Source: Sphingobacteriia bacterium (lineage in GTDB: Bacteria > Bacteroidota > Bacteroidia > Chitinophagales > Chitinophagaceae). From it: a DNA stretch of 64,000 nucleotides. The stretch is from contig CANGTR010000005.1 in the NCBI GenBank assembly GCA_947456855.1, positions 1 through 64,000 of the forward strand. The letters run 5' to 3'. Numbering within the stretch: the stretch's first letter is position 1; each line of letters starts with the position of its first letter. The notes beneath the pieces were generated by a model. The model did no database searches. It was not told the origin of the DNA and worked only from the letters and a program-made list of their open reading frames with translations. The position numbers and the translations under genes are program-made. Positions 7,752 to 54,374 of the stretch are shown here, piece by piece.

Positions 7752-7770
7752 AAGCATTACAATTCAATCA

Positions 7771-7815
7771 ACAAGAAATAAATCAGCATATGCTGATTTA
7801 TTTCTTGTTTTTATA
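7771..7815 (+). terminator. 40-bp perfect palindrome plus T-run, terminator between convergent genes
   Basis: AACAAGAAATAAATCAGCAT|ATGCTGATTTATTTCTTGTT followed by TTTAT. Confidence 0.8.
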
Positions 7816-7837
7816 AACAATGATTGAAGCAACTAAT

Positions 7838-45073: not shown

Positions 45074-46459
45074 ATGAAATCATTAAAGTTGGTGCTGCTA
45101 ATGGCAGTAATCGGTCTTTTTTCTTCGCAAGTTTTTGCGCAAGCCAAAAAAACCAAACCAGGCATAAGTGCTGGCGTTTTAGGAGCAGTTAATTTAACCC
45201 AATTTCGCATGGGTAACCCTAAAGGTATAGACTATAAAACCGGAACAGGATGGGCTGCTGGCGTTTGGTTTAACCTTCCATTAACTCAAAAATTATCTTT
45301 TGAGCCACAAGCACAATGGTCTGTTTTAAAATATGTTGGCAACAATAACCCTCCGAGACAATTTGCAGGAACCATACAGTATCAATCTTTTCCTTTATTG
45401 TTCAAATATACATTTAGTAAAGATTTCTCTGTTATTGCTGGTCCACAAATTGATTTCAACAACTCATTAAAAAACGACAATACCAGTGTTTATTATAAAA
45501 GAGATTTTCTAGCCATAAGTACTGCAGCAACTGCAGGTGTTGAATTATTTACGCAAAGAAAAGTTCAGTTATATGGTCGTTATATCTATGGGATCACAGA
45601 CATGAAAACAACGCAGAATTTCAACGCAAATAAGGGCAATATTCAGTTTTATAATACTGGATTCCAATTTGGTTTGAAAGTGAAGTTGTACGAAAAGAAA
45701 ATAGCTCCACCTCCACCACCTCCACCACCACCAGCTCCAGTTGTTGTAGTGCCTAAAGATACAGATGGTGATGGTGTAATCGATGACAATGATAAGTGTC
45801 CTTCGGTAAAAGGATTGGCTAAATACCAAGGATGCCCAATCCCTGATACTGATAAAGATGGTATCAACGATGAGCAAGACAAATGCCCTACTGTAGCTGG
45901 ATTGGCAAAATACCAAGGATGCCCAATTCCTGATACCGATAAAGATGCTATCAATGATGAAGAAGACAAATGTGCTACAGTGGCTGGTTTAGCTCGCTAC
46001 CAAGGATGTCCTATTCCTGATACCGATCAAGATGGTGTTAATGACGAAGAAGACAAGTGTCCTACAGTAAAAGGAACTGTTGAAAACAATGGTTGTCCGG
46101 AATTGAAAAAGCAATACAATTTTGACAATAAAAAAATATTGTTTGTAACGGGTAGTTCTGTATTAACAAAAGCATCTAAAGTTGAATTAGGGAAAGTGAT
46201 TAAAGCAATGAATGATTACCCTTCTTTGAAATTGTATGTAGATGGTTATACCGACAATACAGGCTCTGATAAAATCAACAAAGCATTGTCTTTAAAAAGA
46301 GCAACTTCAGTTAAGTCTTACTTATTTGCAAAGAAAATTGCTGCTGATAGATTGTTAACAGAAGGCAAGGGAAGCGAAAGTCCAATTGCAGACAATAAAA
46401 CTGTAAAAGGTAGAGCAGAGAACAGAAGAGTTGAATTTAGGGTTCGTGAAATTGATTAG
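45074..46459 (+). CDS. OmpA family outer membrane protein with thrombospondin type 3-like repeats
   Basis: Signal peptide, beta-barrel N-terminus, Pro-rich hinge, DTDGDGVxDxxDKCP repeats, OmpA domain VDGYTDNTGS...GRAENRRVEFR. Confidence 0.93.
   Translation: MKSLKLVLLMAVIGLFSSQVFAQAKKTKPGISAGVLGAVNLTQFRMGNPKGIDYKTGTGWAAGVWFNLPLTQKLSFEPQAQWSVLKYVGNNNPPRQFAGTIQYQSFPLLFKYTFSKDFSVIAGPQIDFNNSLKNDNTSVYYKRDFLAISTAATAGVELFTQRKVQLYGRYIYGITDMKTTQNFNANKGNIQFYNTGFQFGLKVKLYEKKIAPPPPPPPPPAPVVVVPKDTDGDGVIDDNDKCPSVKGLAKYQGCPIPDTDKDGINDEQDKCPTVAGLAKYQGCPIPDTDKDAINDEEDKCATVAGLARYQGCPIPDTDQDGVNDEEDKCPTVKGTVENNGCPELKKQYNFDNKKILFVTGSSVLTKASKVELGKVIKAMNDYPSLKLYVDGYTDNTGSDKINKALSLKRATSVKSYLFAKKIAADRLLTEGKGSESPIADNKTVKGRAENRRVEFRVREID
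45812..46072 (+). repeat. Three 87-bp in-frame TSP3 repeats
   Basis: 29-aa unit GL(A)KYQGCPIPDTDKDGINDEQDKCPTVA repeated at 45812, 45899, 45986. Confidence 0.9.
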
Positions 46460-46568: not shown

Positions 46569-47888
46569 ATGAAAAAGCATCTTAACTCAATCAATATAAT
46601 GTGGTTCAGGCGCGACTTGCGATTATCGGATAACCACGCCTTGTACGCAGCTTTAAAATCAGGGATATCTGTACTGCCTATTTTTATTTTTGATAAATCG
46701 ATATTGGATCAATTAGAAGAGAAAAATGATGCGCGCGTTACATTTATTCATGCAACAATTAGTTCCCTTCAAGAACAATTAAAGCAATTGGGTAGTAGTT
46801 TAGATGTGCGATATGGATTTCCGGAAGACGTGTTTAAGCAACTATTAGAAGAATATTCCATAGCACAGGTTTTTACCAATCATGATTATGAACCATATGC
46901 CAAAGAAAGAGATGAGCGTATATCTGGGCTACTTGATTCACATGGGGTTAAATTCATTACTTATAAAGACCAGGTTATTTTTGAAAAGCAGGAGATTGTA
47001 AAAGATGACGGCAAACCCTACACCGTTTTTACGCCGTATAGTAAAAAATGGAAAGCTAAACTAACTGATGCAGATTGTGTTGCTTTTCCGAGTGAAAAAC
47101 TCATACATGGTTTTCTTCCGCAAGCACCATTAGCTCTGCCTAGTTTGAAATCGATGGGCTTCGAACATTCCTCCATCGTATTTCCTGCTCAGGATCTAAA
47201 TGAGTCTATTGTTCGTCATTATTCCGATCAAAGAAACTTTCCTGCAAACAATAATGGAACTTCTAAAATGGGTCTTCATTTGCGTTTTGGAACAATAAGT
47301 ATACGTTCACTAACCAAAACAACGAGGGTATTAAACGAAACTTTTTTAAACGAGTTGATTTGGAGAGATTTTTACCATGCTATACTTTGGCATTTTCCTA
47401 AAGTTGGCAAAGGAGCTTCTTTTAAAAAGGAATATGATCAAATTGAATGGAGGAACAATGAAACTGAATTCAAAGCTTGGTGTGATGGCAAAACTGGATA
47501 CCCAATTGTAGATGCTGGTATGCGCGAGTTGAATACAACTGGATTCATGCACAATCGGGTAAGAATGATCGTAGCTTCTTTTTTAACCAAACATTTGTTG
47601 ATTGATTGGAGATGGGGAGAAGCTTATTTTGCCCAAAAATTATTGGATTTTGATTTAGCCGCAAATAATGGAGGATGGCAATGGGCAAGTGGAAGTGGTT
47701 GCGATGCTGCTCCGTATTTCCGCGTTTTTAATCCTTATTTACAAACTGAAAAATTTGATCCTCAATTTACATACATCAAAAAATGGGTGCCAGAATTTCA
47801 AGAATTGACTTACCCCAAGCCAATAGTTAATCATGAATTTGCACGTAAGCGCGTGTTAGAAGTGTATGCAAAAGCGTTGAAGAAATAA
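46569..47888 (+). CDS. phr: Deoxyribodipyrimidine photolyase
   Basis: WFRRDLRLSDNHAL, LIWRDFYHAILW, DFDLAANNGGWQWASGSGCDAAPYFRVFNP. Confidence 0.94.
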   Translation: MKKHLNSINIMWFRRDLRLSDNHALYAALKSGISVLPIFIFDKSILDQLEEKNDARVTFIHATISSLQEQLKQLGSSLDVRYGFPEDVFKQLLEEYSIAQVFTNHDYEPYAKERDERISGLLDSHGVKFITYKDQVIFEKQEIVKDDGKPYTVFTPYSKKWKAKLTDADCVAFPSEKLIHGFLPQAPLALPSLKSMGFEHSSIVFPAQDLNESIVRHYSDQRNFPANNNGTSKMGLHLRFGTISIRSLTKTTRVLNETFLNELIWRDFYHAILWHFPKVGKGASFKKEYDQIEWRNNETEFKAWCDGKTGYPIVDAGMRELNTTGFMHNRVRMIVASFLTKHLLIDWRWGEAYFAQKLLDFDLAANNGGWQWASGSGCDAAPYFRVFNPYLQTEKFDPQFTYIKKWVPEFQELTYPKPIVNHEFARKRVLEVYAKALKK

Positions 47889-47900
47889 AACAGAAAAAGA

Positions 47901-48007
47901 AAGCCTTAAAAAACAAAAATTCTACTGCATCCACGTTGCTGAATTTTGCAAGCAAAATTCAAAGCTCGCAACGCGTCTTAAGGTATCATTTTTGTTTTTT
48001 AAGGCTT
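47901..48007. repeat. Nested inverted repeat / long hairpin at the head of the 77-bp array
   Basis: 20-nt perfect arms AAGCCTTAAAAAACAAAAAT (47901-47920) and ATTTTTGTTTTTTAAGGCTT (47988-48007); inner CGTTGC/GCAACG and GAATTTTGC-AA-GCAAAATTC. Confidence 0.9.
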
Positions 48008-48209
48008 ACTATGTTAATGTTTTTGCAAGCAAAATTCAAAGCGCGCAACGCGTCTTAAGGTATCATTTTTGTTTTTTAAGGCTTACTATGTTAATGTTTT
48101 TGCAAGCAAAATTCAAAGTGCGCAACGCGTCTTAAGGTATCATTTTTGTTTTTTAAGGCTTACTATGTTAATGTTTTTGCAAGCAAAATTCAAAGCTCGC
48201 AACGCGTCT
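47944..48209 (+). repeat. Tandem array: three 77-bp units plus a 35-bp partial fourth
   Basis: Units start at 47944, 48021, 48098, 48175; near-identical apart from a variable dinucleotide (CT/CG/TG/CT). Confidence 0.95.
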
Positions 48210-48242
48210 AAATGTACAATTGTTGATGTGATTAGGAAATCA

Positions 48243-49028
48243 TTATTTATTGCTTGCTTTCATAAGCACTTCAATAGCACGCCTGCCTTCAATTCCTAGA
48301 TCTAGTGAATAATTGTTAACATACAAATCTATGTGTTGCCTCATCACATCTTCACTCATTTCTTGAGAATGCTCTTTTACATAAGGTGCTATAGTTGGAT
48401 AGTTGGAGAATGCATATTCAATACTTTTTTTGATCAGTTGGTCTACTTGATCAATCAAGATTGGGTCTATTGATTTTTTTGCAATGATTCCCCCTAAAGG
48501 AATAGGTACTTTTTGTGTATTTTCCCAATGCGCTCCTAAATCATTTAACAGTTTCAATCCTTTATCTTGATAGGTAAATCGGTTCTCGTGAATGATTACT
48601 CCTGCATCTACATCGCCTGAAAGTACAGCATCTTCTATTTCATGAAAAACAGAAAAGATTTTGTTTTTAGCCTGAGGATAGGCCAATGAAAACAATAAAT
48701 GTGCAGTTGTGTTTAATCCAGGAATAGCAACCCTCATATCGTTTTCAAAGGATTCAATATTTTTTTTTGCTATCAACAAAGGGCCTACTCCTTTTCCAAG
48801 GGCACTTCCGCTATTCAATAACTGATAGGTTGATTGCACTTTATGTAGAACACCATAACTGATTTTTGTAAAATCCATTTTCTTTTCTAAAGCCCATTGA
48901 TTTAATGTTTCTACATCTTCTAAATGAACAGAAAATGAATGCCCTAGTGTATCAATTTTTTTATTCACTAAAGCGTCAAAAATAAAAGTATCATTCGGGC
49001 ATGGAGAAAAAGCTAATGAGAAATGCAT
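48243..49028 (-). CDS. mqnD: 1,4-dihydroxy-6-naphthoate synthase (futalosine pathway)
   Basis: LAFSPCPNDTFIFDALVN, GPLLIAKK, GVIIHENRFTY. Confidence 0.92.
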   Translation of the reverse strand: MHFSLAFSPCPNDTFIFDALVNKKIDTLGHSFSVHLEDVETLNQWALEKKMDFTKISYGVLHKVQSTYQLLNSGSALGKGVGPLLIAKKNIESFENDMRVAIPGLNTTAHLLFSLAYPQAKNKIFSVFHEIEDAVLSGDVDAGVIIHENRFTYQDKGLKLLNDLGAHWENTQKVPIPLGGIIAKKSIDPILIDQVDQLIKKSIEYAFSNYPTIAPYVKEHSQEMSEDVMRQHIDLYVNNYSLDLGIEGRRAIEVLMKASNK

Positions 49029-54264: not shown

Positions 54265-54283
54265 AATTCAAATCTTTTTTTGT

Positions 54284-54374
54284 ATCTCATATCTCTTATC
54301 TCATATCTCATATCTCATATCTTGTATCTCATATCTCATATCTCATATCTCATATCTCTTATCTCATATCTCTT
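54284..54374. repeat. Heptanucleotide microsatellite, 13 x ATCTCAT (with ATCTCTT/ATCTTGT variants)
   Basis: Thirteen contiguous 7-bp units. Confidence 0.95.

Follow-up and report, generated by a model that had tools for sequence, protein, structure and literature searches.

ERIC and YPAL elements are imperfect palindromes of ~100 bp in intergenic DNA, with a sequence conserved over the whole element and a higher copy number than that of the hairpin family described here. The family resembles them in length and in intergenic palindromy, and is set apart from them by these descriptions. REP/BIME elements are likewise intergenic palindromes, sometimes arranged in opposite-orientation pairs or arrays, in which one strand is preferred (PMC3733652). 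A reading of the locus from sequence alone (the sequence-only reading) had suggested a REP/BIME-like identity, which did not hold: the family shares the above traits, but its members are longer (45-110 bp vs 20-40 bp), low in copy number and bounded by locus-specific arms, and have neither a conserved GTAG/CGTC tag nor a Y1 transposase (PMC3733652). The family is similar to bidirectional intrinsic terminators in its convergent gaps, palindromy and compensatory stem evolution, and also in an AAGCC/GGCTT-like stem base and a T-rich flank on one side (PMC5381666). Unlike these terminators, it has a much longer hairpin and a conserved core with internal loops, and no GC-rich short-loop stem with a T-run on both strands was found around the window copy (PMC5381666). 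Template switching between the arms of inverted repeats homogenises the arms and inverts the spacer (PMC8604942, PMC8794818). The family shows the same arm homogenisation, paired arm changes and inversion of the enclosed sequence, but in intergenic elements of bacteria whose enclosed core is conserved, and its inverted cores (~65-75 bp) greatly exceed in length the loops described for template-switch hairpins (PMC8794818, PMC8604942). We found no description of such a hairpin family in the open-access literature, which is weak evidence of novelty. Searches of Rfam (release 15) gave no match to a curated model, only weak sub-threshold matches to sRNA or microRNA.

The window analysed here is a stretch of 64 kb, and the repeat in it is an amplified member of a family of long hairpins, low in copy number and not named before, in Sediminibacterium-like bacteria. 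The genus of the members is probably Sediminibacterium in the GTDB taxonomy. Tandem Repeats Finder reported the array at 47944-48216 (period 77, 3.5 copies, 96% matches), with the highest score (511) of all tandem arrays in the window. This agrees with the sequence-only reading, whose unit starts (Table 1) and variable dinucleotide (CT, CG, TG and CT across the units) were also recovered by reading the sequence. The array had been regarded as non-coding because 77 is not divisible by 3, and we concur: the 76-aa ORF that overlaps it was rejected as a coding sequence for want of support. Two other tandem repeats were noted in the window. One, of 87 bp, is in frame (87 = 3 x 29; 45812-46098) and coding, within a 461-aa OmpA-like gene with calcium-binding repeats (TSP3-like DTDKDGINDEEDKC). 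The other is the 7-bp repeat TATCTCA in 12.9 copies (54283-54372); AGATAAGAGATA-type tracts resembling it occur in further gaps of the host genome (L344, L384).

The palindromic intergenic element itself was confirmed as a 107-bp nested hairpin, with a 20-bp outer stem, the pairing CGTTGC/GCAACG and an inner GAATTTTGC-AA-GCAAAATTC. It lies in the convergent gap between phr and mqnD, which it fills together with the units. The arm that precedes the units is indeed in the opposite orientation, but it is the left arm of the full-length element and not, as had been thought, a separate diverged copy. Each unit consists of the right half of the hairpin and 13 bp of flank. The proposed tandem amplification of the 3' arm was borne out by the sister species G023, which has a single copy at the same locus (L143); the amplification of the 77-bp unit is therefore lineage-specific. 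The unit starts at the apex of the hairpin (TTTTGC) and ends in T-rich flank, which leaves a TTTT microhomology at the repeat junction, as read from the sequence. RNA folding of 47895-48012 gave -42.3 kcal/mol (z = -7.85), a stability reached by none of 200 shuffles, and no other inverted repeat scores as high in the 657 gaps of 40-500 bp scanned over 1.69 Mb of host sequence. Covariance models matched it at 47922-47986 (R1, 82.9 bits, the window copy being a seed of this model) and at 47915-47993 on the minus strand (R3, 39.9 bits, with a shortened form of the window copy as a seed). A 40-bp near-perfect palindrome in the convergent gap at 7752-7837 (AACAAGAAATAAATCAGC-ATAT-GCTGATTTATTTCTTGTT) falls outside the hairpin family.

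Table 1. Features of the hairpin locus in the window
Feature	Position	Strand	Basis or remark
Full-length palindromic element, 107-bp nested hairpin	47901..48007	-	Minus strand is structural, judged by loop types and energy
Left outer arm AAGCCTTAAAAAACAAAAAT	47901..47920	+	Locus-specific; complementary to 47988-48007
Right outer arm	47988..48007	+	Complement of left arm
Conserved core	47922..47986	-	Alignments, covariation; internal loop CTTAAGAC / GGATGCA (minus strand)
Core helices	47922..47986	-	Inner stem CGTTGC/GCAACG, 6-nt bulge, apical helix
Asymmetric 6-nt bulge AAGCTC	47962..47967	+	Alignment
77-bp unit 1	47944..48020	+	Sequence reading, Tandem Repeats Finder
77-bp unit 2	48021..48097	+	Sequence reading, Tandem Repeats Finder
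77-bp unit 3	48098..48174	+	Sequence reading, Tandem Repeats Finder
Partial unit 4	48175..48225	+	Exact as far as 48209, degraded to about 48225
phr, deoxyribodipyrimidine photolyase family, convergent neighbour	46569..47888	+	Name from the sequence-only reading and homology
mqnD, menaquinone biosynthesis, convergent neighbour	48243..49028	-	Name from the sequence-only reading

The members of the family share an anatomy, described here inwards along the structural strand, which in the window is the minus strand. They begin with locus-specific arms of 14-28 bp, often followed by a tandem G.A/A.G step (GA/GA in the window) and then by a short helix. Next comes an internal loop whose two sides, (A)UUWAGMC and GGRU(U)GCA, are conserved, and within it lies an inner stem of variable length. 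Long forms have a further helix beyond a bulge of 6 nt; the bulge reads AAKCNC in several members, ACCCAC at the TBDR locus and AATCTC in the mqnD-locus copy of G451. The apical loop is GAA, GNRA or similar in most members, with the window copy as an exception. In the window copy a GTAG stands beside the loop (GCAGTAGA), and its paralogues have instead GCAGTTGA, GCAGAGGA and GCAGCGAA (by inspection). The core spans ~45-75 nt and its conserved part is the internal loop, not the arms. In every case where the two halves of the motif were both found, positions M and R co-vary, GAC going with GGA and GCC with GGG. The mqnD-locus copy of G451 has other helices (AGCATTTTC/GAAAATGCT) and the same loops. 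The expected stem pairing and co-variation were found in the long-core alignment (seven related rows), with 90.2% of the cells paired and six pairs changed on both sides. The covariation score was reached by none of 500 shuffles and by no slid register, and sliding the register dropped the pairing to 27-45%. The structural strand folded better than the opposite one in all 25 members (which are related and not independent) with both RNA and DNA parameters, a preference that would suit RNA and single-stranded DNA alike.

Relatives of the element had been anticipated elsewhere, and at least three more sites were found in the host genome (G000, a draft of 132 contigs), in addition to those of related genomes. 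DNA and pattern searches identified three near-identical full hairpins, on contigs C3 (141-249), C101 (122-230) and C110 (2565-2673). The gene ends on both sides overlap between C3 and C101, which carry the element in opposite orientations and differ also in flank and arm sequence; the two contigs are probably two versions of one junction, owing to a strain mixture in the draft assembly. C3 and C110 have arms and core in common right up to the arm ends, which implies at least one event of copying of the whole hairpin. On contig C100, which starts partway through a tandem array, right half-hairpins of a different sequence recur with a period of about 70 and a short hairpin comes after them; this array is independent of that of the window. 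The host copy number is thus set at ~4 loci. Direct covariance-model scans of 1.69 of the 2.48 Mb of the host genome revealed no further convincing copies; a weak R1 match at C10:30286 was set aside, being within apparent coding DNA. On C110 (L114), a 21-bp stretch of the 3' end of pdhC (CAGTTAGAATGTTGGTTTAAT) recurs as an inverted duplicate across the element from the gene, so that the palindrome reaches into the gene end. At C57:13079-13109 (L006), 31 bp match the left outer arm (AAAGAAAGCAGTAAAAAACAAATTCTAC) at 88%, without the remaining hairpin.

Combining R1 and R3, we detected members in 14 of the 147 genomes of the genus and in one genome of a sister genus (G691); these counts are lower bounds, given the strict filters applied when many genomes were scanned. 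The long-core model R1 found members in G023, G003 and G451 among the 147 genomes. The phr/mqnD gap of relatives holds short forms (e.g., CATTTAGCCGAAGGGTGCAG in G003 and CATTTAAGACCCTGAAAGGGGATTGCAG in G017), and a pattern search identified close short-form variants, such as TGCAATCCTTCTTCGAAGTCTTAAA, in several more genomes. The seeds of R3 were natural short forms together with artificially shortened long forms. It matched clearly in G440, G308, G441, G011, G443, G260, G467, G017, G480 and G344, as well as in the host and G003, and its match in G691 (another genus of the same family) adjoins phr. We rejected G518 as a fifteenth genome of the genus, its match being weak and its sequence not looking real. 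There are about 1-5 copies per genome, with 1-4 R3 matches per relative (lower bounds). In G260, G308, G441 and G011 all detected members lie on one contig (C15, C4, C9 and C23, respectively), at most ~65 kb from phr, which may reflect a regional cluster or a detection bias. The phr-mqnD gap at L032 has sequence in common with the family member of G480. A pattern search of the whole order gave scattered matches, and those read outside the host genome had no paired hairpin in the matched string. A phage or plasmid origin was rejected after searches of phages and plasmids gave no match; 15 viral matches from one search were also discarded, the five inspected having no paired arms.

Copies at syntenic positions are often inverted relative to the genes, and this was the case for at least one pair of copies at each of the four loci compared. 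The element is inverted at mqnD/phr between the host and G023, at the traR-like/ABC junction between C3 and C101 (C3 and contig C177 of G023 have the same orientation), at the pdhC/protease locus between the host and G451, and at TBDR/esterase between G003 and G451. The arms changed in pairs. At mqnD/phr a C:G pair became A:T (GCC/GGC in the host, GCA/TGC in G023); GCTTGATAC became GCTTTATAC between C3 and C101 at the traR-like locus, and GATAC became GATTC between C110 and G451 at the pdhC locus, the partner arm changing too in both cases. In its own frame the element is 96.3% identical at mqnD/phr, compared with 78-80% for the genes, and it is 91.7% identical at the traR-like locus, where the flanks reach 85-89%. 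The pattern of arm homogenisation with spacer inversion between close relatives, as left by template switching, occurs at the four syntenic loci. Half-hairpin arrays were found at three sites: the window, C100 of the host and the mqnD gap of G451, which contains one full element together with left halves and a number of right halves. Judging from this pattern, template switching between the two arms during replication would repair mismatches, making the arms co-vary, and the same process would flip the enclosed core. It would explain both the paired changes and the flips, so that no recombinase is needed. The TTTT microhomology between the T-rich flank and the hairpin apex may have let replication slip, multiplying the half-hairpin.

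The gene context points to the ends of converging genes. Members lie mostly in convergent gaps, namely mqnD/phr, traR-like/ABC, pdhC, TBDR/esterase, queA/HK and dut/isomerase, with co-directional exceptions in the MFS/rarA gap and in that between phr and a gene of 186 aa. Strong inverted repeats occur in 7 of 100 convergent gaps of the host genome and in 9 of 557 others (Fisher p = 0.005, with ORF-based gene calls). Unrelated long palindromes occupy the phr-mqnD gap of other Chitinophagaceae (L068, L039, L062); the 165-nt gap of Chitinophaga eiseniae (L068) folds at -122 kcal/mol. The convergent bias and the unrelated palindromes in the same gap favour a generic, putative role as a 3'-end hairpin. 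A scan for canonical terminators, allowing loops of 3-8 only, gave no site at 47700-48400; no T-run directly follows the stem on the plus strand, and a T-rich flank is present on the minus strand only. In many relatives the ends of phr and mqnD are 0-40 bp apart without the element, which is therefore not required. The hairpin would act as an orientation-independent 3'-end element for both converging genes, putatively as a transcription barrier or terminator and as a protector of mRNA 3' ends.

The explanation to which we lean, giving it slightly less than an even chance, is thus a putative bidirectional 3'-end hairpin, with a palindrome and flips maintained by template switching and an array produced by lineage-specific slippage. 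It sits less well with the common orientation of C3 and C177 of G023 in the traR-like region, and with the elements between co-directional genes, where the structural strand can be antisense to the genes, as in the phr region. The conserved loop sequence also exceeds the needs of a terminator, and the core is unexplained by a 3'-end role. The main rival is a REP-like non-autonomous mobile element, of which one strand folds and is copied to new sites by an enzyme other than Y1/RAYT, convergent gaps being merely tolerated landing places. We regard it as rather unlikely, and it stands mainly because C3 and C110 share the whole hairpin to the arm ends. The better folding of the same strand in all 25 members, the GAA/GNRA-like loops and the variable gene orientation also suit a role at the DNA level, and elements sometimes occur in nearby opposite-orientation pairs. 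Yet the few copies (about 1-5) and the several syntenic positions indicate vertical inheritance, and the arms, which differ between loci, provide no fixed terminal repeats; as they differ wholly, we also rejected a MITE. No target-site duplication is evident by eye at C3 and C110. The sequence-only reading had proposed to look for a RAYT-type transposase, but PF01797 is absent from the host, G023 and G003 (the latter two incomplete), with control genomes as expected. It is doubtful, if conceivable, that we face a new class of intergenic hairpins in which some protein recognises the strand-specific core as single-stranded DNA or RNA and copies or maintains the element through this recognition, flips being free since the function would not depend on orientation.

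Other explanations have less in their favour. A structured non-coding or regulatory RNA, with a core that binds a protein or a metabolite, is improbable. It would account for the conserved noncanonical internal loop with its M/R co-variation, the compensatory stems, the GNRA-like loops and the change of helices around constant loops in the mqnD copy of G451. However, the element is not tied in position to promoters or to any one gene class, its orientation flips relative to the host transcript, its neighbours are unrelated (phr/mqnD, pdhC, TBDR/esterase, queA, rarA, dut), many relatives lack it and Rfam does not match it. That inversions recur between arms ~14-28 bp long could also suggest an invertible DNA switch, with a site-specific recombinase acting on the arms, and the alternative assemblies C3 and C101 of one junction in the same MAG fit a mixed population. 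We consider this very unlikely: arms wholly different between loci leave no shared recombination site, flipping in a convergent gap brings no promoter-specific gain, and C3 and C101, which differ in flank and arm too, do not represent a simple switch of one template. Most improbable of all is that the 77-bp array arose as an error of assembly or is a strain-specific duplication without meaning. The draft state of the host genome and the single copy of the sister species would allow it, but the units differ from one another, half-hairpin arrays arose independently at C100 and in G451, and the underlying hairpin is a conserved family regardless.

As orthologues that retain their core, change both arms together and flip between species, these hairpins record template switching in bacteria cleanly and in a natural setting; short enclosed sequences usually make the process hard to detect. 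The family is thus a natural test case for the creation and upkeep of DNA hairpins by replication template switching. Its conserved, strand-specific core raises the question of what recognises the hairpin. If the mobile reading were true, the family would represent a REP-like system with a different enzyme. If the 3'-end role were true, it would describe how converging transcripts are separated in this bacterial group.
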